Source: an uncultured Planctomycetaceae bacterium (GTDB lineage Bacteria > Planctomycetota > Planctomycetia > Pirellulales > UBA1268). Taken from it: a DNA stretch of 37,763 bases. The notes under the pieces were generated by a model. It ran no database searches. It was given only the letters and a program-made list of their open reading frames with translations, and was not told the origin of the DNA. The DNA lies in assembly GCA_903831155.1 (NCBI GenBank), contig CAIKWU010000427.1, positions 1-37,763 of the forward strand, written 5' to 3'. Every line of letters starts with the position of its first letter. The stretch's first letter is position 1. The position numbers were made by a program, and so were the translations under genes. Below are positions 340 to 37,485 of the stretch, one piece after another.

Positions 340-2961
340 ATGCTCGCCCGACCGATCGCCATCGCGTGGACCCTGACCGCACTCGCGAGCCTCGCCACGC
401 CCGTGATGGCGATTCCAGCGGTTCCCGGGGCGACCGGCTTCGGTGCCAACGCCACCGGGGGCCGCGGCGGCGACGTCTACCACGTCACCACGCTGGCCAA
501 CGATCCGGGCCGCGCGATCCCGGGCTCGCTGTTCTACGGCCTCTACTCCAAGAACGTGCCGGCCGGCGGCCGCACGATCGTGTTCGACGTCGGCGGCACG
601 ATCGACCTCTCGTCCGGCACCAGCGCCACGCTCGACCTGAAGGACATCCGTAACGTCACGGTGGCCGGCCAGACGGCGCCCAGCCTCGTCACCATCATCG
701 GTAACACGGTGCAGATCACCGGAAACACCGTCGCCACCCCCACCCACGACATCATTTTCCAGCATGTCGCCATCCGCAAGGGCACGGGCGCCGGCGCCGA
801 CTCGCTGAGCATCAAGGGCACGGGCAACACCCACGACATCTTCGTCAGCAACGTGTCGGGATGCTGGAGCGAGGACGAGGTGATCAGCGCCACGCAGACG
901 GCGACGAACGTGACCGTGCAGAACTCGATCCTCGCGGAGGCGTTGACGGCAAGCCACGCCTACGGCGCGCTCATCCGGCCCACCGTGAACTCCCGGATCT
1001 CCTACAACCAGAACCTGTTCGCCGACCAACAGAGCCGCAACCCGCGGCCCGGCACCTACAACGGCATGACGCTCGACTTCGAGTTCCAGAACAACGCCAT
1101 CTACAACTGGGCCGACCGGGCCGGCTACATCGCGGGGGCCGACGGCACGATCCAGCGCCTCAACATGAACTACGTCGGCAACTATCTCGTCGCCGGCCCC
1201 GTGCCCGTCAACACGTCGTCGAACCCCGTGCGGCGGAGCACCGCGTTCCTCAAGGAGATGAACGCCGACCCGCTCGACGTCAAGATCTTCCAGGCCGGCA
1301 ACAAGATCGACTCCAACTACACGGTCATCCGCGACGGCACCGACACCGGCTGGGCGATGTTCCAGCAGTCGGCGAGTGGCACCTATTCCACGCTCGCCAC
1401 CGCCGACCGCGTGGCCACGAGGTTCGACTACCCCGACGCCACGCCGCTCGACGCCGATGACGCCTACGCCAACGCGATCGCCACGGCGGGCGCCATGCCG
1501 TGGGCACGGAGTCCGATCGACAGGCGGATCATCGACACCGTACTCACTTTCACCGGCACCGCCCCGGTCACGGCCCCGAATGCCGCCGAGTGGGCTTCGC
1601 TCACGAGCGGCAGCATGACCACGCGGCCGGCCGGATGGGATACCGACGGCGACGGCATGCCCAACGCATGGGAGGCGAAGCGGGGAACGAACCCGAATGT
1701 CGCCGACAACAACGGCTCGGTGGCCGGCAACGGCTACACGAACCTCGAGAACTACCTGAACTCGCTCTCCGCCCAGGCGGTCTGGTATCCCGACACCGAC
1801 GGCGGAGCGGCAAACTTCATGAACTGGCGGGGCGAGCGGCCGACGTCGGCCTGGTCGATCGCCACCTTCGGCGATGTCATCACCGCCCCCCGAACCGTGT
1901 CGCTCGACGTGCCGCTGTCGGTGCAGGACCTCACCTTCGACAGCCCGCGGGGCTACGTGCTCTCGGGCACGCGGTCGCTCACGCTCGACGCCCTCGCCGG
2001 CCACGCCACGCTCACCGTGGCGAGCGGCAGCCACGTCGTCGCGGCGCCGGCGGTGTTTGCCGATGCGACGACCGTCACCGTCGCGACCGGGTCGGCGGTG
2101 GTGTCGTTCACCGGGGGCGTGACCGCGTCGGGACGGACGATCACGAAGTCCGGGCCGGGAAGCATGGTGGTGCCGAGCCTTTCGTCCGCCGCACTCGTGG
2201 TTTCGGCCGGCGGCATCCACCTCGCCTCGGCCGGCCCCACGGCGAGTGACCTCACGAGCCTCGCGATCGACGAGGCGGCAGGCGGAGCGGTCGATCTCGG
2301 GGCTGGCAGCGTGACCATCGCCGCCGGCGGGATGACCACGGCGGCGCTGCTGGCAGACCTGATCGCGGGTCGCAGCGGCGGTTCGTGGACCGGCCCCGGC
2401 ATCCGCTCGTCGGTCGTGGCGGCGGAGGTGGCGGCCGGCCTGCCGCGGGCGGTGGGCTGGCTCGCGAACGGCGACGGCTCCCTGACCGCCTCCTACGCCG
2501 CGCCGGGCGACACCAACATCGACCGGATCGTGGACCTGCTCGACACGGCCAACTTCCTCGCAGGTGGCCGGTTCGACACCGGCCTGCCCGCGACCTGGTT
2601 CGAAGGCGACTTCACCTACGACGGCGTGGTCGACATCCTCGACGCAGCCGACTTCTTCGGCGGCAACCTCTACGACACCGGTCCCTACGGCACTGCGGTC
2701 TCGTCGCCGGGCGTGGCCGCGGTGCCGGAACCCACATCGCTGATCCTGCCCGCGGCCGCGGGCTCCATCATCGCCGTCGCCTCCGCGGGTTGGCCGCAAC
2801 GCCGAGGCCGCAGGCCAGGGCAGTCTCTTCCGCTGCCGTACGGCGGGATCACACTCGATTCGACCGCCGGATCACCGACGCGTAGGCTTGCCGTCCGGCA
2901 GCGCGGCACGACGTCGCGGTGCCGACTCCGCGGGAATCCCCGATGCGGGCGGCAGCGTTGA
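340..2961 (+). CDS. Pectate lyase-like (PL1-type beta-helix) secreted protein with C-terminal dockerin-like repeats and PEP-CTERM signal
   Basis: ORF 259..2961; the likely start is ATG at 340 (MLARPIAIAWTLTALASLATPVMA signal peptide). N-terminus AVPGATGFGANATGGRGGDVYHVTTLAND is typical of pectate lyases. DTDGDGMPNAWE motif, then PGDTNIDRIVDLLDTANF / GDFTYDGVVDILDAADF dockerin-like repeats, then VPEPTSLILPAAAGSIIAVASAGWPQRRGRR. Confidence 0.85.
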   Translation: MLARPIAIAWTLTALASLATPVMAIPAVPGATGFGANATGGRGGDVYHVTTLANDPGRAIPGSLFYGLYSKNVPAGGRTIVFDVGGTIDLSSGTSATLDLKDIRNVTVAGQTAPSLVTIIGNTVQITGNTVATPTHDIIFQHVAIRKGTGAGADSLSIKGTGNTHDIFVSNVSGCWSEDEVISATQTATNVTVQNSILAEALTASHAYGALIRPTVNSRISYNQNLFADQQSRNPRPGTYNGMTLDFEFQNNAIYNWADRAGYIAGADGTIQRLNMNYVGNYLVAGPVPVNTSSNPVRRSTAFLKEMNADPLDVKIFQAGNKIDSNYTVIRDGTDTGWAMFQQSASGTYSTLATADRVATRFDYPDATPLDADDAYANAIATAGAMPWARSPIDRRIIDTVLTFTGTAPVTAPNAAEWASLTSGSMTTRPAGWDTDGDGMPNAWEAKRGTNPNVADNNGSVAGNGYTNLENYLNSLSAQAVWYPDTDGGAANFMNWRGERPTSAWSIATFGDVITAPRTVSLDVPLSVQDLTFDSPRGYVLSGTRSLTLDALAGHATLTVASGSHVVAAPAVFADATTVTVATGSAVVSFTGGVTASGRTITKSGPGSMVVPSLSSAALVVSAGGIHLASAGPTASDLTSLAIDEAAGGAVDLGAGSVTIAAGGMTTAALLADLIAGRSGGSWTGPGIRSSVVAAEVAAGLPRAVGWLANGDGSLTASYAAPGDTNIDRIVDLLDTANFLAGGRFDTGLPATWFEGDFTYDGVVDILDAADFFGGNLYDTGPYGTAVSSPGVAAVPEPTSLILPAAAGSIIAVASAGWPQRRGRRPGQSLPLPYGGITLDSTAGSPTRRLAVRQRGTTSRCRLRGNPRCGRQR

Positions 2962-4687: not shown

Positions 4688-7600
4688 TCATGCACGGTGC
4701 CGACGACGGCACCCCATCCATCCCGCGGCCGCGGCCACGACCACCACCGCACCCGAGGGCTCGGGCACGGAAGCGACCGGCGCCGCGAGTGTGTCGGATG
4801 CGGCGGCCCACGTGAAGCCGGCATCGAAACGCCCGGTGCCGAGGGCATCGGCCACGTCGAGCAGATCGACCATGCTGTCGAAGTTGAAGTCGCCGTCAGC
4901 CCAGCCCGTCTGGCCGCCCTTGTCGTAGTGGCCCCCCGACAACAGGTCGGCGGCGTCGAGGATGTCGTAGAGACCGTCGAGGTCTCCGTCGCCCGGCGCG
5001 GCCGCGGCGATCGTGAACGAGCCGTCCGCCTCCTGCAGCCAGCCGATGCCACGGCCCTGCCCCGCTGCCGCAGCCGCCGCCACGCTCCTGGAAACGATGC
5101 CCCGCGGGCCGTCCCAGCTGCCGTCGCCGCGTCCGGCGATCAACTCGGCGAGCAGCGTCTGCCGCGTGATGCCACCGGCCGCCACGCTCATCCGCGCCGT
5201 GCCCACGTCGACCACGCCTCCGCTCCCGACCGTGAGGCCGGCCACCCGCAGCGCGAACGCGGGATCCTCGGGGAGCATCACGGTGCCGCTGGTGACGACG
5301 AGCCGCGCCTGGGCCGCCGCGCCGCCGCCCGACACCGAGAGCCGTCCCGCCGCGACGTCGATCGTGCCCGTCACGAGCAGCGGCGCCGTCACCGCGAGCG
5401 TGCCGCCGCCGGTCTTCGACATGCCGCTGGTGCCCGAGAGCGTGGCCGCGAGCGTGGCGGTCAGGCCGCTTCCCACGTCGACGCTCGGCCGGATCGTGCC
5501 CGAGGCGAAGGCGACTGTGCCCCCCTGGAGCACGTAGCCCGTCGACTGGAACGAGAGCCCCGCGGTGGACACGCGGCCCGACACGCTGACGGTGCCGGCG
5601 GTCCCGCTGAACACCGACCGGGCCGTCGTGACCGGACCCAGGCGGCCCGACCCGTTCACCCAGCGCATCCCGGAGTCGGTCCAGGTGCCGCTGCCCCCGG
5701 CCGTCGTGCCCGACGCGGCTCCCGACCAGACCATCTGCGACGGCGCCCGGTACAGGGCGTCGACCCGCGACTGCACGTCGGCCGGCGAGAGCGTGCGGCC
5801 AAACACCGAGACCTCGTCGATCGAGCCGGCCCAGGCCTCCTGCATGGCGGTGCCCGACAGAAACCCGCCGAGCGCCATCCGCGCCGTCGTGAGCGGCACG
5901 CCGCTGGCGACCTGCGCGGTGATCGCCCGCGTGACCTGCTGCTGGCCACCCGTCATGTCGGCCACGTAGGTGTTGATCGTGGTCTGCGACCCCGACACCG
6001 CATAGGTGCTCGCCACGTAGTACCAGCGGCCCGGCTCGAACGTGGCGGCGAACGTCGCCCTGTTGTCGGCCTGGCTGATGCTGTCGCCGATGATCGTGGA
6101 CATCGAGTCGGCGGCCGCCCCCTCCTGCTGCACCACGAAGTAGCCGCGGTTGTTGCTGTTCTGGCCGCCCGCGTTCACGGCGTAGCCGATCGAGCCGCCC
6201 GTCTCGAGCAGCTCGGGCCGCACGAGCGCCTCGACGGTGTAGGCGGCGGGCAGCGTGACGCTGCCGGTGGTGGCCAGGGCCGCGCCGCCGGCGGTGCTCG
6301 AGAATCGGCCGAGCCGCTGCGGCGACATCGCCGTGGTCGACTCGTCGAGGCCCATTCCGTAGCCGATCGCCGCGGTGCTCCCCTCGCTGCCATACGCCAG
6401 CGACTGAAGCCCGCCCCCCGACCCGGTGCCAGAGTTCCGCAGGAGCTCCGCCGCCGTCGTACCCTCGAAGCTCCACTGGTAGAGGAGCGCGGAATCGGCC
6501 CGCGCCCCGTCGCGAAGCTGCGACGTGAAGGTGCGGACGGCGGGCGTCTCGAGCACGCGCCTCACCGTCGCGCCGCCGTCGCCGCCGGAGGGAAGCCGCA
6601 TCGTGATCCGCGCGAGGTCGGCCGGCCCCTCCGGCCGCGGCCGCGTCACGTCGGCATGGATCGTGGTCGCCTGGTTGTGGGGATTCGAGACGGATAGCAC
6701 GGCTGCGGACGCCGACTCGTCCAACATCACGAGCGACGGCTCCCGGACCGCGAGCGTGGTCCCGCTGCCGGTTGCCAGCGTGCCGGAGGCGTAGAACGCG
6801 GCCTGCGTGAGTTTCATGGCGTCGTGCCGGGCGGCCTGCAGGGTTCGCGTGTTCGCGAGGATGCGAACCGCGGGGGCGGCCGCGTAGGCGGCCACGGCCG
6901 ACCCGCTCACCCCCGGCAGGACGACGTAGGAGTAGGCTGCTCCCGTCGGAGCGGTGCCATGGCCCACCTGGAGGCTGAACACGCTCCCGGTCACGAGCGT
7001 GCTGGACTGCGAGGTATTGAGCCCCGACCACGAACCGCTCTGCACGGCCGCCCGCAGCGTCACCTCCTGTGGCTCCGGGAAGACGTAGCCGACGCCGTCG
7101 TGAAGCACCCAGCTCACGTCGCCTCGCGAGAGCGTTCCGCTGGTGAGCGAGCCGCTCGAACCGCTCGTGGCCGCCCAGGCTGCCGAGCCGGTCTGGAAGG
7201 TCTGGTTGAGCGTGGTGATCACCTCGCCCGTCGCGGAGGGCGCATCGATCCCCGCACCGAGCGCCACCTCGATGTCGTCGAAAAAGAACCAGGCCTTGCG
7301 GGCCTTCACGTTCCGCTGCGAGTAGTCGAGCACGGTGGCCCCGTTGCGGCCGTCCGACACGCCCCCGACGAATCCGGTCGTGCCCGCCACGCCCCAGTTC
7401 GATCCGGGCGTGAGCGAGTAGGACGACTGCTCGGTGGTCGTGCCCGGGAGCCGTCGCCAGTCCCAGAGCGGCTGGATGTCGGTGTATTCGTTGCCGCGCT
7501 GCTGGATCAGGTTGACGCCGTCGGCGAGGTGCAGGTTCTTCAGCCCCTCCCCGTTGCCCGACTCGGGCTCGAGCGTCCGCGTCGACGACACCTTCACGGT

Positions 7601-8683
7601 CGCGGAGAACCCCGGGCGGTGGTGGGCGGTGAAGTCGGACCGCCAGAAGTGGCGGTGACCGGCGAGGGCGAGGGCGGGAGAGGCCGTGCCCGAGGTCTTT
7701 GCGGCCGAGATCCGGTCCCGCATCGTGGTCAGCTCCGCGGCCCGGTAGGTCGTCATCGCGCTCACCTGGTCGATCACGCCGACGAGGCCGCTGCCGAGGT
7801 TCTTGCTGCTCGTCCGGGTGATGCCGCGGCCCTGGGTCGTGGCGTCGAACGTGGTTCCCCGAAGCATCCACTGCTGGCCGTCGAGGAGGTAGTCCACGAT
7901 CACGTGCGCCTCGGCGTCGGCGAGGGCGTAGCCGGTGCCCACGGCATAGGACGTGATGTCGAGCGACAGCGACGCGAAGGTCAGGCCGTACGACCCGTTG
8001 TTGAGCTGCGGGCCGTGCTGGTGGAAGCTGAAGTCGGGCTGGATGCCCTCGCCCGTGCCCGTCACGAGCGTGTCGCCGATCGCCGCGAAGGCCTCCGCGG
8101 TGAGCGGGGAGTCGCGGGCGATCACGCCCCTGAGGATCGTGGCGTAGGCCCGATCCATGCGGTTCGTGCCGGTGTTCGTGCCGGCGTTGGTGCTCCGCGG
8201 AATGGTGGAGCGGGCCACGATCGTGGTGCCGCTGGTGAGCTGGGCCGCCGAGAGCTGCGGCTGCACGAGCAGGATCGTCCCGCCCAGCAGCTGCGGCGTG
8301 TTGATCTCGTTGTACCACCAGTTGGTGCTGCGGGGGTCGAGCGACACGAACGCGTCGTAGGCCTTGAGGATCCCCTGGAGCAGCGTCGCCGACCCGTGGA
8401 GCGCGTGCGTGGGGTTGGCATAGGCCCGCGACATGGAGAGCAGCCGCGACAGGTGCGTCTGCTGCGACCAGCCCGTCTGGCTCGTGTCGGCGTAGTCGAC
8501 GTCGCTCCAGCGACCGTCGGCCCCGAGTGACGTCAGGTATCCGTTGGTGATCGTCGCGCTGGAGGCGGCCGACGTCAGGTCCGTCCTGATCCGCGCAGCC
8601 ACCGTGTCGAGATCGTCCCCGCGGGCGGTCGCCGCAATCGCGATCGCCAGGCACAGGCACGGGATCAGGCAGGGGCGTCGCAC
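4688..8683 (-). CDS. Polysaccharide lyase family 8-like protein (hyaluronate/chondroitin/xanthan lyase type) with LamG-like, beta-strand, dockerin-like and PEP-CTERM C-terminal regions
   Basis: NWWYNEINTPQLLGG, DFSFHQHGPQLNNGSYG (catalytic Asn/His/Tyr region of PL8), NGEGLKNLHLADGVNLIQQRGNEYTDIQPLWDWRRLPGTT. LamG-like LLYQWSFEG...AYTVEALVRPE; APGDGDLDGLYDILDAADLL / GDFNFDSMVDLLDVADAL; VPEPSGAVVVVAAAAGWMGCRRRHRA. Confidence 0.88.
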   Translation of the reverse strand: MRRPCLIPCLCLAIAIAATARGDDLDTVAARIRTDLTSAASSATITNGYLTSLGADGRWSDVDYADTSQTGWSQQTHLSRLLSMSRAYANPTHALHGSATLLQGILKAYDAFVSLDPRSTNWWYNEINTPQLLGGTILLVQPQLSAAQLTSGTTIVARSTIPRSTNAGTNTGTNRMDRAYATILRGVIARDSPLTAEAFAAIGDTLVTGTGEGIQPDFSFHQHGPQLNNGSYGLTFASLSLDITSYAVGTGYALADAEAHVIVDYLLDGQQWMLRGTTFDATTQGRGITRTSSKNLGSGLVGVIDQVSAMTTYRAAELTTMRDRISAAKTSGTASPALALAGHRHFWRSDFTAHHRPGFSATVKVSSTRTLEPESGNGEGLKNLHLADGVNLIQQRGNEYTDIQPLWDWRRLPGTTTEQSSYSLTPGSNWGVAGTTGFVGGVSDGRNGATVLDYSQRNVKARKAWFFFDDIEVALGAGIDAPSATGEVITTLNQTFQTGSAAWAATSGSSGSLTSGTLSRGDVSWVLHDGVGYVFPEPQEVTLRAAVQSGSWSGLNTSQSSTLVTGSVFSLQVGHGTAPTGAAYSYVVLPGVSGSAVAAYAAAPAVRILANTRTLQAARHDAMKLTQAAFYASGTLATGSGTTLAVREPSLVMLDESASAAVLSVSNPHNQATTIHADVTRPRPEGPADLARITMRLPSGGDGGATVRRVLETPAVRTFTSQLRDGARADSALLYQWSFEGTTAAELLRNSGTGSGGGLQSLAYGSEGSTAAIGYGMGLDESTTAMSPQRLGRFSSTAGGAALATTGSVTLPAAYTVEALVRPELLETGGSIGYAVNAGGQNSNNRGYFVVQQEGAAADSMSTIIGDSISQADNRATFAATFEPGRWYYVASTYAVSGSQTTINTYVADMTGGQQQVTRAITAQVASGVPLTTARMALGGFLSGTAMQEAWAGSIDEVSVFGRTLSPADVQSRVDALYRAPSQMVWSGAASGTTAGGSGTWTDSGMRWVNGSGRLGPVTTARSVFSGTAGTVSVSGRVSTAGLSFQSTGYVLQGGTVAFASGTIRPSVDVGSGLTATLAATLSGTSGMSKTGGGTLAVTAPLLVTGTIDVAAGRLSVSGGGAAAQARLVVTSGTVMLPEDPAFALRVAGLTVGSGGVVDVGTARMSVAAGGITRQTLLAELIAGRGDGSWDGPRGIVSRSVAAAAAAGQGRGIGWLQEADGSFTIAAAAPGDGDLDGLYDILDAADLLSGGHYDKGGQTGWADGDFNFDSMVDLLDVADALGTGRFDAGFTWAAASDTLAAPVASVPEPSGAVVVVAAAAGWMGCRRRHRA

Positions 8684-34788: not shown

Positions 34789-37485
34789 TCAGCCGGCCGT
34801 GCGACGCGACCGGACGTCCGGAGTGGCGGGAAGCGCGGCCTCCCAGTTGATCCCGTACGTGGCGAAGGCCGAGGCGACCGCGGCCTGCCGAGCGGCGTCT
34901 CGCGAGCCCGCGATCCGCGCGCCCGAACCGGCCGTCGCTGCCGCCGCGAGGGCGAACCGCACCTGGTAGACGCCGGTCGAGCCGTTGCGACCGGAACCGG
35001 CCCGCGTCGGCGAGTACGACGAGTTGCCGTAGCCCGAGATGCCCACGTAGTAGGTGCCGGCGGTCGTCGCCCGGAAGGAGATGTAGCTGTCACGCGACCC
35101 GCCGAAGTCGTCGTTGGCTGCCACCTGCCTGCCCGAGGCGTCGAACAGCCGTGCGTAGCTGTCGAGCGTGGATCCGCCGGAGAGCGACCTGGCATCGACG
35201 TCGATGACGAGCGTCTGGCCCGCGGCGAGCACGACCCGGTAGAGATCGACATCCCGGGACCCGTAGGAGCCGTCACCGATCCGGCCCGCGAGCCGCACCT
35301 CGCCCGAGGTGATCCCGAGGTCCGCCGACGTCGCCAGCGTGTCGCCCGCGTCGGTGAGCGTGGCGGCCTGCGTCACCCAGGTGTCGCTCGCCGCGGTGGC
35401 GAATGCCGTGCCGCCGTCCACGGCCGAGATCCCGCTGCCAGTGGCGTTGATCGTGAGCACGTAGGTGCCCGCCGATGCCGTGGCGGTGGACAGACCGTTG
35501 ACCGTCCAGCGGACGTTGTCGGTCGTGGTCACGGTGACGCCCGCCAGGGATACGGCGGTGCCGCTGCGGGTGAGCGTGAAATCGGCGGCATCGACGCCGT
35601 TCACGGCCCGGCTGAACTGCACGACCACCGCCGACACCGAGGTGGTGCGGGGGTCGGGCGAGATGTCGACGACGTCGGCCGTGGGCGCGGGCAGGGCGGC
35701 GCTCACGGTGAGCGTGTAGCCGCCCGTGGTCGAGCCGGTGGTGCCGCTTCCGGCCGTGGCGGCGGCATACGTCGAGTTGCCGTACGACGACACGCCGATG
35801 TAGTAGGTGCCCGACGTCGGCACGGTGTACGACACCAGGCTGTCGAACGACCCGCCGGCATCGTCGTTGGCCGCGAGCTGCGAACCGGACGCAGCGAACA
35901 CCCGCAGGTAGGAGTCGAGCGACGACGGCGTGGCCAGGGAACTGGCGTCGATGTCGGCGGTGAGCACCGTGCCGGCCGCGAGGGTCACGGCGTAGAGATC
36001 GACGTCGGCGGCGGTGAAGGCACCGTCCCCGATCGTGGCCGATACCGTGGCCCTTCCGCCCGACAGGGTCACCGGTGTGGCCGTCGCGAGCGAGTCGTTC
36101 GGCTCACCCGCGCCGGACGGCGGCGGCGGGGGCGGAGGCGGCGGCGGGGGCTCCGTGCCGCCGAGCGCGGCGAGAGCGGCCGACGCGTTCACGAGGCCTC
36201 CGGTGGCGACCTTTCCAGCCAGCGCCGCAACCGGCACGGCCGTCGAGAGGATGGCCGAGCGGATCTGGGCCGCGGTCGCCTGCGGGTTGGCCGCCGCGAG
36301 GAGCGCGACCGTGCCCGTGACGTGGGGCGTGGCCATGGAGGTGCCGCTGTACGACGCATAGCCGGCGTTGGGCACGGTCGAGTAGATGCCCACGCCCGGA
36401 GCGGCGACATCGACGGTGGTCGCCCCGTAGTTCGAGAACGAGGCCAGCCGGTTGGAGGCGTCGGTGGCCGCCACGGAGATGATGGCGTCGCTCGGGTAGT
36501 TCGCCGGATACGACGGCGTGGTGTCGTTGTTGGTCGCCTCGTTGCCGGCGGCCGCCACGCAGACGATGCCGGCGGTCCCGCCGTTGGCGATCGCATCCCG
36601 CAGGGCATTCGAGGCTCCCCCGCCGCCCCAGCTGTTGTTCGTGGCCACGACGTTCACGCTGAAGCTCTGCCGCATCCGGGTGGCGTAGTTGACCGCCGCG
36701 ATCGCCCCGCTGGTGGAGCCGCTGCCGTCGGCACCGAGGAACTTCAACGCCATCAGCGACACGTTCCACGACACGCCGACGACGCCCACGCCGTTGTTGC
36801 CCACGGCGCCGATCGTGCCGGCAACGTGGGTGCCGTGTCCCTCGTCGTCGAACGGGTCGGCGTCGTTGTTGGCGAAATCCCAGCCGTGCACGTCGTCGAC
36901 GTAGCCGTTGCCGTCGTTATCGATCCGGTCGCCCGCAACCTCGCCCGGATTCCGCCACATGTTGGCGGCGAGATCGGGATGGCGGTAGTCGATTCCGGTG
37001 TCGATCACACCCACGACGACCGACCGCGACCCGGTGGTGGTGTCCCAGGCCTCGGGCACGTCCATATCGGCGTCGGTCACGCCGCCAGTCTGTCCGGTGT
37101 TGTGGAGGCCCCAGAGCCGCGAATACGACGGATCATTCGGAGTCGCCGCGGTCGTGATCACGAAATCGGGCTCGACGTACCGCACGCCGGGCGTGGCGGC
37201 GGCCCAGCCCTGCACCTCGGCCACGCTCGCTGCCGGGGCGCGAAGCGCGAGAAATCCGCCGCCGAGGGAGGTGGCGGTCCAGCCCTGCTTCACCCCCAGC
37301 GATGCCGCGTCTGCCCGCACGATCCAGGAGTCGGCCCGGGCCGCCACGGCCCGGCCGTCCCAGTCGATTTCGCGAACGCCCTGACCGACGTCGGCCGCGA
37401 GGAGCATCCTCGGCTCGAGCCGCTCCAGCCGGGGCAGCCTGGCAGTTCGACGACGACGCAGATGGGCGGGACGGGAAGGGGTCAT
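34789..37485 (-). CDS. Subtilisin-like (S8) secreted serine protease: LEPR-XLL N-terminus, propeptide, peptidase, polyproline linker, two PPC-like domains flanking an Ig-like domain
   Basis: RLERLEPRMLLAAD N-terminus. Triad VVGVIDTGIDYRHPDL / DDEGHGTHVAGTIG / SGTSMATPHVTG. EPPPPPPPPPPPSG linker; tandem EPNDSLATATPV...YYIGVSSYGNS and DAGDTLATSADL...YYVGISGYGNS. Confidence 0.93.
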   Translation of the reverse strand: MTPSRPAHLRRRRTARLPRLERLEPRMLLAADVGQGVREIDWDGRAVAARADSWIVRADAASLGVKQGWTATSLGGGFLALRAPAASVAEVQGWAAATPGVRYVEPDFVITTAATPNDPSYSRLWGLHNTGQTGGVTDADMDVPEAWDTTTGSRSVVVGVIDTGIDYRHPDLAANMWRNPGEVAGDRIDNDGNGYVDDVHGWDFANNDADPFDDEGHGTHVAGTIGAVGNNGVGVVGVSWNVSLMALKFLGADGSGSTSGAIAAVNYATRMRQSFSVNVVATNNSWGGGGASNALRDAIANGGTAGIVCVAAAGNEATNNDTTPSYPANYPSDAIISVAATDASNRLASFSNYGATTVDVAAPGVGIYSTVPNAGYASYSGTSMATPHVTGTVALLAAANPQATAAQIRSAILSTAVPVAALAGKVATGGLVNASAALAALGGTEPPPPPPPPPPPSGAGEPNDSLATATPVTLSGGRATVSATIGDGAFTAADVDLYAVTLAAGTVLTADIDASSLATPSSLDSYLRVFAASGSQLAANDDAGGSFDSLVSYTVPTSGTYYIGVSSYGNSTYAAATAGSGTTGSTTGGYTLTVSAALPAPTADVVDISPDPRTTSVSAVVVQFSRAVNGVDAADFTLTRSGTAVSLAGVTVTTTDNVRWTVNGLSTATASAGTYVLTINATGSGISAVDGGTAFATAASDTWVTQAATLTDAGDTLATSADLGITSGEVRLAGRIGDGSYGSRDVDLYRVVLAAGQTLVIDVDARSLSGGSTLDSYARLFDASGRQVAANDDFGGSRDSYISFRATTAGTYYVGISGYGNSSYSPTRAGSGRNGSTGVYQVRFALAAAATAGSGARIAGSRDAARQAAVASAFATYGINWEAALPATPDVRSRRTAG

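Follow-up and report, generated by a model that had tools for sequence, protein, structure and literature searches.

An unnamed module and a dockerin-like EF-hand pair form a recurrent cassette, probably a structural cap and spacer, in presumed surface proteins of planctomycetes

Two catalytically unrelated lyases of an uncultured Planctomycetaceae bacterium, both encoded in the window (the whole stretch of 37,763 nucleotides analysed here), carry the same cassette, composed of an unnamed module of about 75 residues and a dockerin-like EF-hand pair, and this cassette recurs throughout the genome. Its probable role is structural, as a terminator and spacer for enzymes and adhesins displayed on the surface. 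In the proposed mechanism, the pre-dockerin module would close the stalk formed by a PATR beta-solenoid: the first two short strands of the module would prolong the final rung of the solenoid, and the module's helices would shut the open end. The calcium-loaded EF-hand pair would then serve as a rigid, calcium-stabilised spacer joining the stalk to the next part of the protein. This part would usually be a PEP-CTERM tail, processed by the exosortase for attachment to exopolysaccharide or the envelope, and sometimes a CBM2-like or other domain. The route-independent use of the module as a cassette is new to the available sources, while PATR, dockerin-type EF-hands, PEP-CTERM and LEPR-XLL were already known.

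The peptides on which the original prediction of a common C-terminal cassette relied were confirmed in frame, at window positions 2290-2700 on the plus strand and 4814-5215 on the minus strand. Compared by BLASTP, the two copies have 50% identity and 66% positives over 131 amino acids with one gap (E 1e-38), a likeness far above chance, which bears out the cassette shared by both lyases. The catalytic parts are unrelated, as had been proposed. The plus-strand gene aligns with the solved pectate lyase 9buj_A, its sole Pfam match being the TSP3 repeat, and in the minus-strand gene the full set of three PL8 domains is accompanied by a LamG domain (Table 1). Downstream of both copies, the PEP motif, hydrophobic helix and C-terminal basic cluster are present by sequence, with PF07589 scoring below its cut-off. 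The pectate lyase frame runs about 48 codons beyond the basic end of its PEP-CTERM (window 2815-2961), which is unusual; this overrun may equally be due to a frameshift near the end or to a genuine extension.

Table 1. Features of the window discussed in the text (positions in the whole stretch)
Feature	Position	Strand	Evidence or remark
PL1-type pectate lyase ORF bearing copy 1	340..2961	+	ATG at 340; listed ORF opens at 259
PL1-type pectate lyase catalytic region	418..1335	+	residues 27-332 aligned to PDB 9buj_A, E 1.3e-19
Bacterial TSP3 repeat	1639..1704	+	PF18884, 28.8 bits against a cut-off of 25
Predicted PATR-like beta-solenoid stalk, directly before module copy 1	1858..2268	+	AlphaFold2 model
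Pre-dockerin module copy 1, unnamed alpha/beta cap domain of ~75 aa (predicted)	2287..2511	+	
Dockerin-like EF-hand pair copy 1	2509..2688	+	calcium loops 2509-2544, 2608-2643
PEP-CTERM tail copy 1 (VPEP, hydrophobic stretch, RRGRR)	2722..2814	+	PF07589 in register, below cut-off
PL8 lyase ORF bearing copy 2, with LamG domain	4688..8683	-	PF08124, PF02278, PF02884, PF13385
Pre-dockerin module copy 2	4988..5215	-	BLASTP against copy 1; assembly profile search
Dockerin-like EF-hand pair copy 2	4814..4990	-	BLASTP against copy 1; ligand columns
PEP-CTERM tail copy 2 (VPEPSGAVVVVAAAAGWMGCRRRHRA)	4691..4768	-	PF07589 15.6 bits, below cut-off of 20.7
LEPR-XLL subtilase without cassette and without PEP-CTERM	34789..37485	-	NF012209 23.4 bits, over cut-off, at 37387-37431

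A profile built from the two window copies gave 81 cassette matches in the window's own assembly (G000; 4.39 Mb, 652 contigs, 89% complete), part of them contig-end fragments, and full-length coverage was obtained for 58 copies. The conserved core reads xDxGxGxxTVAxG...LxAGRGDGSWxGxxGITSSxAAA...PRxVGWLxNGDGSxTxAYAAPGD and is followed by two calcium loops 33 residues apart. The carriers are catalytically unrelated, with highly varied upstream domains, among them PL1, PL8, PL11, GH16, GH26, alpha-1,3-glucanase, subtilase, BNR, LTD, GSDH and others, and they are not restricted to enzymes, contrary to the original expectation. What most of them share upstream is the PATR / TIGR02601 beta-strand repeat, which precedes the cassette in 42 (PF12951) and 43 (TIGR02601) of the 53 copies scanned. 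About 20 of the 81 matches adjoin a contig end, approximately twice a rough chance estimate (e.g., on C339, C473, C147, C503 and C639, and likewise on C529, C620, C212 and C634). The assembly may have been broken by the cassette genes, and the real copy number could differ.

The DNA common to paralogues with unrelated N-termini starts about 290-300 nt (about 100 codons) upstream of the segment, inside the solenoid, and extends beyond the dockerin-like pair in the direction of the PEP-CTERM; the boundaries first assigned to the cassette were in frame and slightly too narrow. The highest DNA identities, 91% and 81%, belong to pairs which are paralogous over much of their length, and the others are about 60-80%. 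A recently mobile cassette was rejected, since DNA identity is just about 70-77% even between the most similar copies whose upstream regions are unrelated. In the course of the DNA comparison of paralogues, no mobile-element feature was noticed. The cassette module thus appears to be old and widely recombined, and nothing indicates that it is mobile at present; the term "mobile" used in the original prediction holds for the former sense alone.

The pre-dockerin segment had been described as fitting no named family, and indeed no Pfam or NCBIfam match was obtained for the window copies and 57 paralogues, nor was any PDB family matched. AlphaFold2 predicts a compact alpha/beta domain in the order strand-strand-helix-strand-helix-strand-strand. 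The same module fold appears in a 154-residue model (pLDDT about 89) and in a 309-residue model, which comprises copy 1 and the 170 residues upstream and reaches a pTM of 0.79, with pLDDT mostly 83-98 across the solenoid and the module. The solenoid strands lie at model residues 27-163 (mostly pLDDT 83-97), and the first two short strands of the module, VDL and SVTI, come directly after the last of them. Confidence is low over the dockerin part, where pLDDT is about 50-67. Neither the cassette model nor the extended model had a PDB match with an E value below 0.6 in a Foldseek search. The module is predicted to extend the last rungs of the PATR-type beta-solenoid, a contact which rests on pTM and pLDDT, and it would cap the solenoid in the real protein in the same manner. 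Such capping is not universal, because three short members of the broader family described below (L200, L201, L202) have no long solenoid ahead of the module.

A solenoid stalk directly upstream, found in most cassette copies, is a likeness to the PATR / TIGR02601 autotransporter passengers, whereas the cassette proteins have no barrel and end in the module, the EF-hand pair and PEP-CTERM. The module could also be regarded as a folding and secretion nucleus, comparable to the C-terminal regions of autotransporter passengers. It would fold first outside and make the PATR solenoid fold vectorially during export, the trigger being calcium binding in the EF-hand pair. Its place directly after the solenoid, the strong conservation of the calcium ligands and the occurrence of PATR in autotransporter passengers, known from the family name, suit this explanation. 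However, export would probably proceed through Sec and the exosortase, or through an unknown LEPR-linked route, rather than through a C-terminal beta-barrel, and no barrel is seen downstream of the cassette, so that a folding nucleus is improbable.

Even less credit is given to the module as a carbohydrate- or exopolysaccharide-binding domain tethering the enzymes to the matrix. Many carriers are polysaccharide-active (PL1, PL8, PL11, GH16, GH26), and the GGxWxGxxGIxSS core is conserved together with its tryptophan. Yet some carriers are without any polysaccharide-active domain, a separate CBM2-like domain is present in some copies, and the glycines flanking the tryptophan look structural; this function is therefore considered very improbable, and the cap-and-spacer role is retained as the preferred reading.

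The dockerin-like pair shows the hallmark of type I dockerins, i.e., two calcium loop-helix (F-hand) repeats with near-invariant acidic ligands. Among 57 paralogues, aspartate occupies loop positions 1 and 12 in all 57 for both loops, position 5 in 57 of 57 (loop 1) and 54 of 57 (loop 2), and position 9 in 55 of 57 in each loop. At position 3, loop 1 has N or D in most copies, and loop 2 mostly N, T, G or S. Calcium binding by the pair is very likely, as judged from these ligands. Positions 10-11 serve for cohesin recognition in cellulosomal dockerins. In both repeats of the 57 paralogues they are near-invariantly hydrophobic (mostly I or V, then L), which would also suit a partner-binding face. 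The Dockerin_1 family PF00404 recognises 27 of the 57 paralogues and neither window copy, and several paralogues score above its cut-off.

The tandem calcium repeats, with aspartate at 1, 5, 9 and 12 and the same spacing, thus resemble type I dockerins, but the cassette differs from them in the unmatched window copies, in the lack of a detected cohesin, in the presumed anchors of the carriers themselves and in the dedicated module, which precedes the pair in nearly all copies. With the cohesin family PF00963, nothing over the cut-off was found in the bacterium's own genome and no match whatever in four cassette-rich relatives, in assemblies 89-97% complete and at a divergence which PF00963 can still recognise, since strongly divergent cohesins would escape it. 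The lack of cohesin matches in these five genomes agrees with the original prediction, which had already doubted a classical cellulosome. One weak cohesin match (C636:561-884, 18.5 bits) was rejected, as it sits in a PATR beta-strand repeat protein and not in a scaffoldin.

The pair might nevertheless be a true dockerin, with a cohesin-like receptor too divergent for PF00963, by which about 80 enzymes and adhesins would be gathered on a surface scaffold similar to a planctosome. The PF00404 matches over the cut-off, the conserved calcium ligands and the hydrophobic pair kept in both repeats agree with this explanation, and a non-canonical cohesin/dockerin system has been proposed for freshwater planctomycetes (Nemodlikiaceae, PMC6461901). 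The planctosome hypothesis likewise concerns dockerin-type domains on non-cellulolytic planctomycete exoproteins, but its model relies on cohesin proteins (PMC6461901), whereas none was recognised in the cassette genomes. Docking would also be redundant, as nearly all complete copies have a presumed anchor of their own (PEP-CTERM, or a LEPR-type N-terminus and tail), and in several proteins the cassette is located between domains. A true dockerin is accordingly judged unlikely, and the pair would serve for spacing rather than docking, in proteins whose final location would be the cell surface.

The placement of the cassette along the protein bears on the same question. In L281 (G472 C114), it is located near the N-terminus, directly after a short PATR-like stretch and ahead of a pectin-lyase-like enzyme region, and additional domains follow it in L094, L077, L100 and L261; the suggested restriction to the C-terminus of surface enzymes does not hold for these proteins. 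Because of this order in L281, the domains after the cassette and the copies without PEP-CTERM, the cassette cannot be called strictly C-terminal and does not belong to a sorting signal. Its position before an enzyme or before CBM2-like and other domains is easier to reconcile with a structural unit than with a C-terminal sorting signal.

The most common element after the cassette belongs to the PEP-CTERM / exosortase sorting system (Haft et al. 2006, PMC1569441), with which the cassette proteins share VPEP, a hydrophobic helix and a basic cluster. PF07589 was over its cut-off in all five paralogue tails scanned (L051, L052, L056, L072, L073). The search for an exosortase, which had been recommended at the outset, detected one in the bacterium's own genome (PF09721, E 5.7e-45), at locus L060 (G000 C54:8520-12810). 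By reading, the neighbouring genes are chain-length-determinant/tyrosine-kinase-like, EpsI-like and GDP-mannose-dehydratase-like, and the neighbourhood is an exopolysaccharide-type locus. A single clear exosortase in such a locus with tens of substrates is a further likeness to the known system, in which Verrucomicrobium spinosum has 65 PEP-CTERM substrates (PMC1569441). The difference lies in the distribution: the exosortase is present in all ten congeners, cassette-bearing or not, and the cassette in about half. Since the exosortase occurs without the cassette and a minority of cassette proteins are without PEP-CTERM, the cassette is not part of the PEP-CTERM signal.

The complete cassette proteins of five genomes, 87 in total, fall into two exclusive classes. 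PEP-CTERM is present in 71, none of which has the N-terminal LExRxxL motif, and the remaining 16 are without PEP-CTERM and all have the motif. A uniform pattern found 15 of these 16, L094 being missed through the distance filter alone and its motif seen by eye; Fisher's test on the resulting 15:0:1:71 table gives p 6e-16, a value which is indicative, because related proteins from one genome do not count as independent observations. The split was spotted in the bacterium's own genome and then checked in the relatives, where a stricter first pattern caught six of nine LExRxxL cases and the remaining three were recognised on inspection. The LExRxxL carriers include L063, L077, L086, L087, L090, L094 and L100, and, in relatives, L222, L240 and L255-L261. 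With the NCBIfam LEPR-XLL model (NF012209), one of four scanned N-termini reaches the cut-off (L077, 17.2 against 17). The tails of this class are CBM2-like in L077, L100 and L261 (by reading) and consist of other domains in L094; the remaining ones are short and basic-ended, often with DAAFAA(L/F/Y) ahead of the basic end. As the two classes are exclusive, the cassette is not bound to either anchoring route.

The window itself encodes a LEPR-XLL subtilase without the cassette, which has Peptidase_S8 and PPC domains. It is related to three other cassette-free LEPR-XLL subtilases (L284, L289, L290), which share with it a tail of the form DAAFAAYG..NW.AALP...RR, and this tail resembles those of LEPR-type cassette carriers (e.g., L080, L222, L287). 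By its sequence, the DAAFAAYG-type tail is a candidate sorting tail for LEPR-XLL proteins. A wider reading would assume two exclusive routes, one through Sec and PEP-CTERM/exosortase and the other through the LEPR-XLL N-terminus, which would deliver proteins sharing one interchangeable cassette of solenoid cap and calcium spacer, with a second, undescribed sorting signal in the LEPR tail, i.e., a short DAAFAA(L/F/Y)... stretch with basic residues at the end, often paired with the LEPR-XLL N-terminus. This reading is tentative and somewhat doubtful as a whole. In the literature searched, LEPR-XLL appeared in two passing mentions, and nothing was found on planctomycete dockerins combined with PEP-CTERM.

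The module was detected in 18 of the 60 genomes of the family, and its copy number within one genus is very uneven (70, 56, 47, 21, 12, 1, 1, 1, 0, 0, 0). Dockerin_1 matches are confined to five of the ten congeners, those with a strong module match; the module and the pair would therefore have been gained or lost together, atop a constant exosortase system. Five congeners (G318, G342, G424, G462, G466) have the exosortase, no or merely weak cassette matches and no dockerin matches. A general planctomycete domain was rejected: profile A2 matched the own genome and one of 296 genomes drawn across the phylum, and a broader profile the own genome and one of 248, figures which are lower bounds, as about 20 candidates per genome were scored. 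The phylum-wide occurrence of the module is patchy.

Remote relatives (L171-L202) were sought with a profile of distant members, as A2 has no stretch conserved enough for a contig scan, and they come from Phycisphaerales, Planctomycetaceae, Pirellulales, Thermoguttaceae and one Opitutaceae genome. An hhalign comparison of A4 with A2 (probability 95.9%, E 6e-9) ties them to the window form. These PVC relatives share the order of strand, helix, GGxWxGxGIxSSxAA core, GY, strand and YTxxGDANLDG dockerin, mostly followed by PEP-CTERM, but have about 25-35% identity to the window copy, and in most of them an additional loop precedes the last strand. The window form is a divergent subfamily which has expanded greatly and occurs largely within its own family.

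A role and a model are thus proposed for a domain which is unnamed in public family libraries and is carried by about 80 proteins of one genome. On this view, planctomycete "dockerins" that have no cohesin partner would in many cases be structural calcium spacers and not parts of cellulosomes. The strict division of the carriers into a PEP-CTERM and a LEPR-XLL class, in turn, provides a way into the study of the LEPR-XLL N-terminus, which has received little attention, and of its export route.
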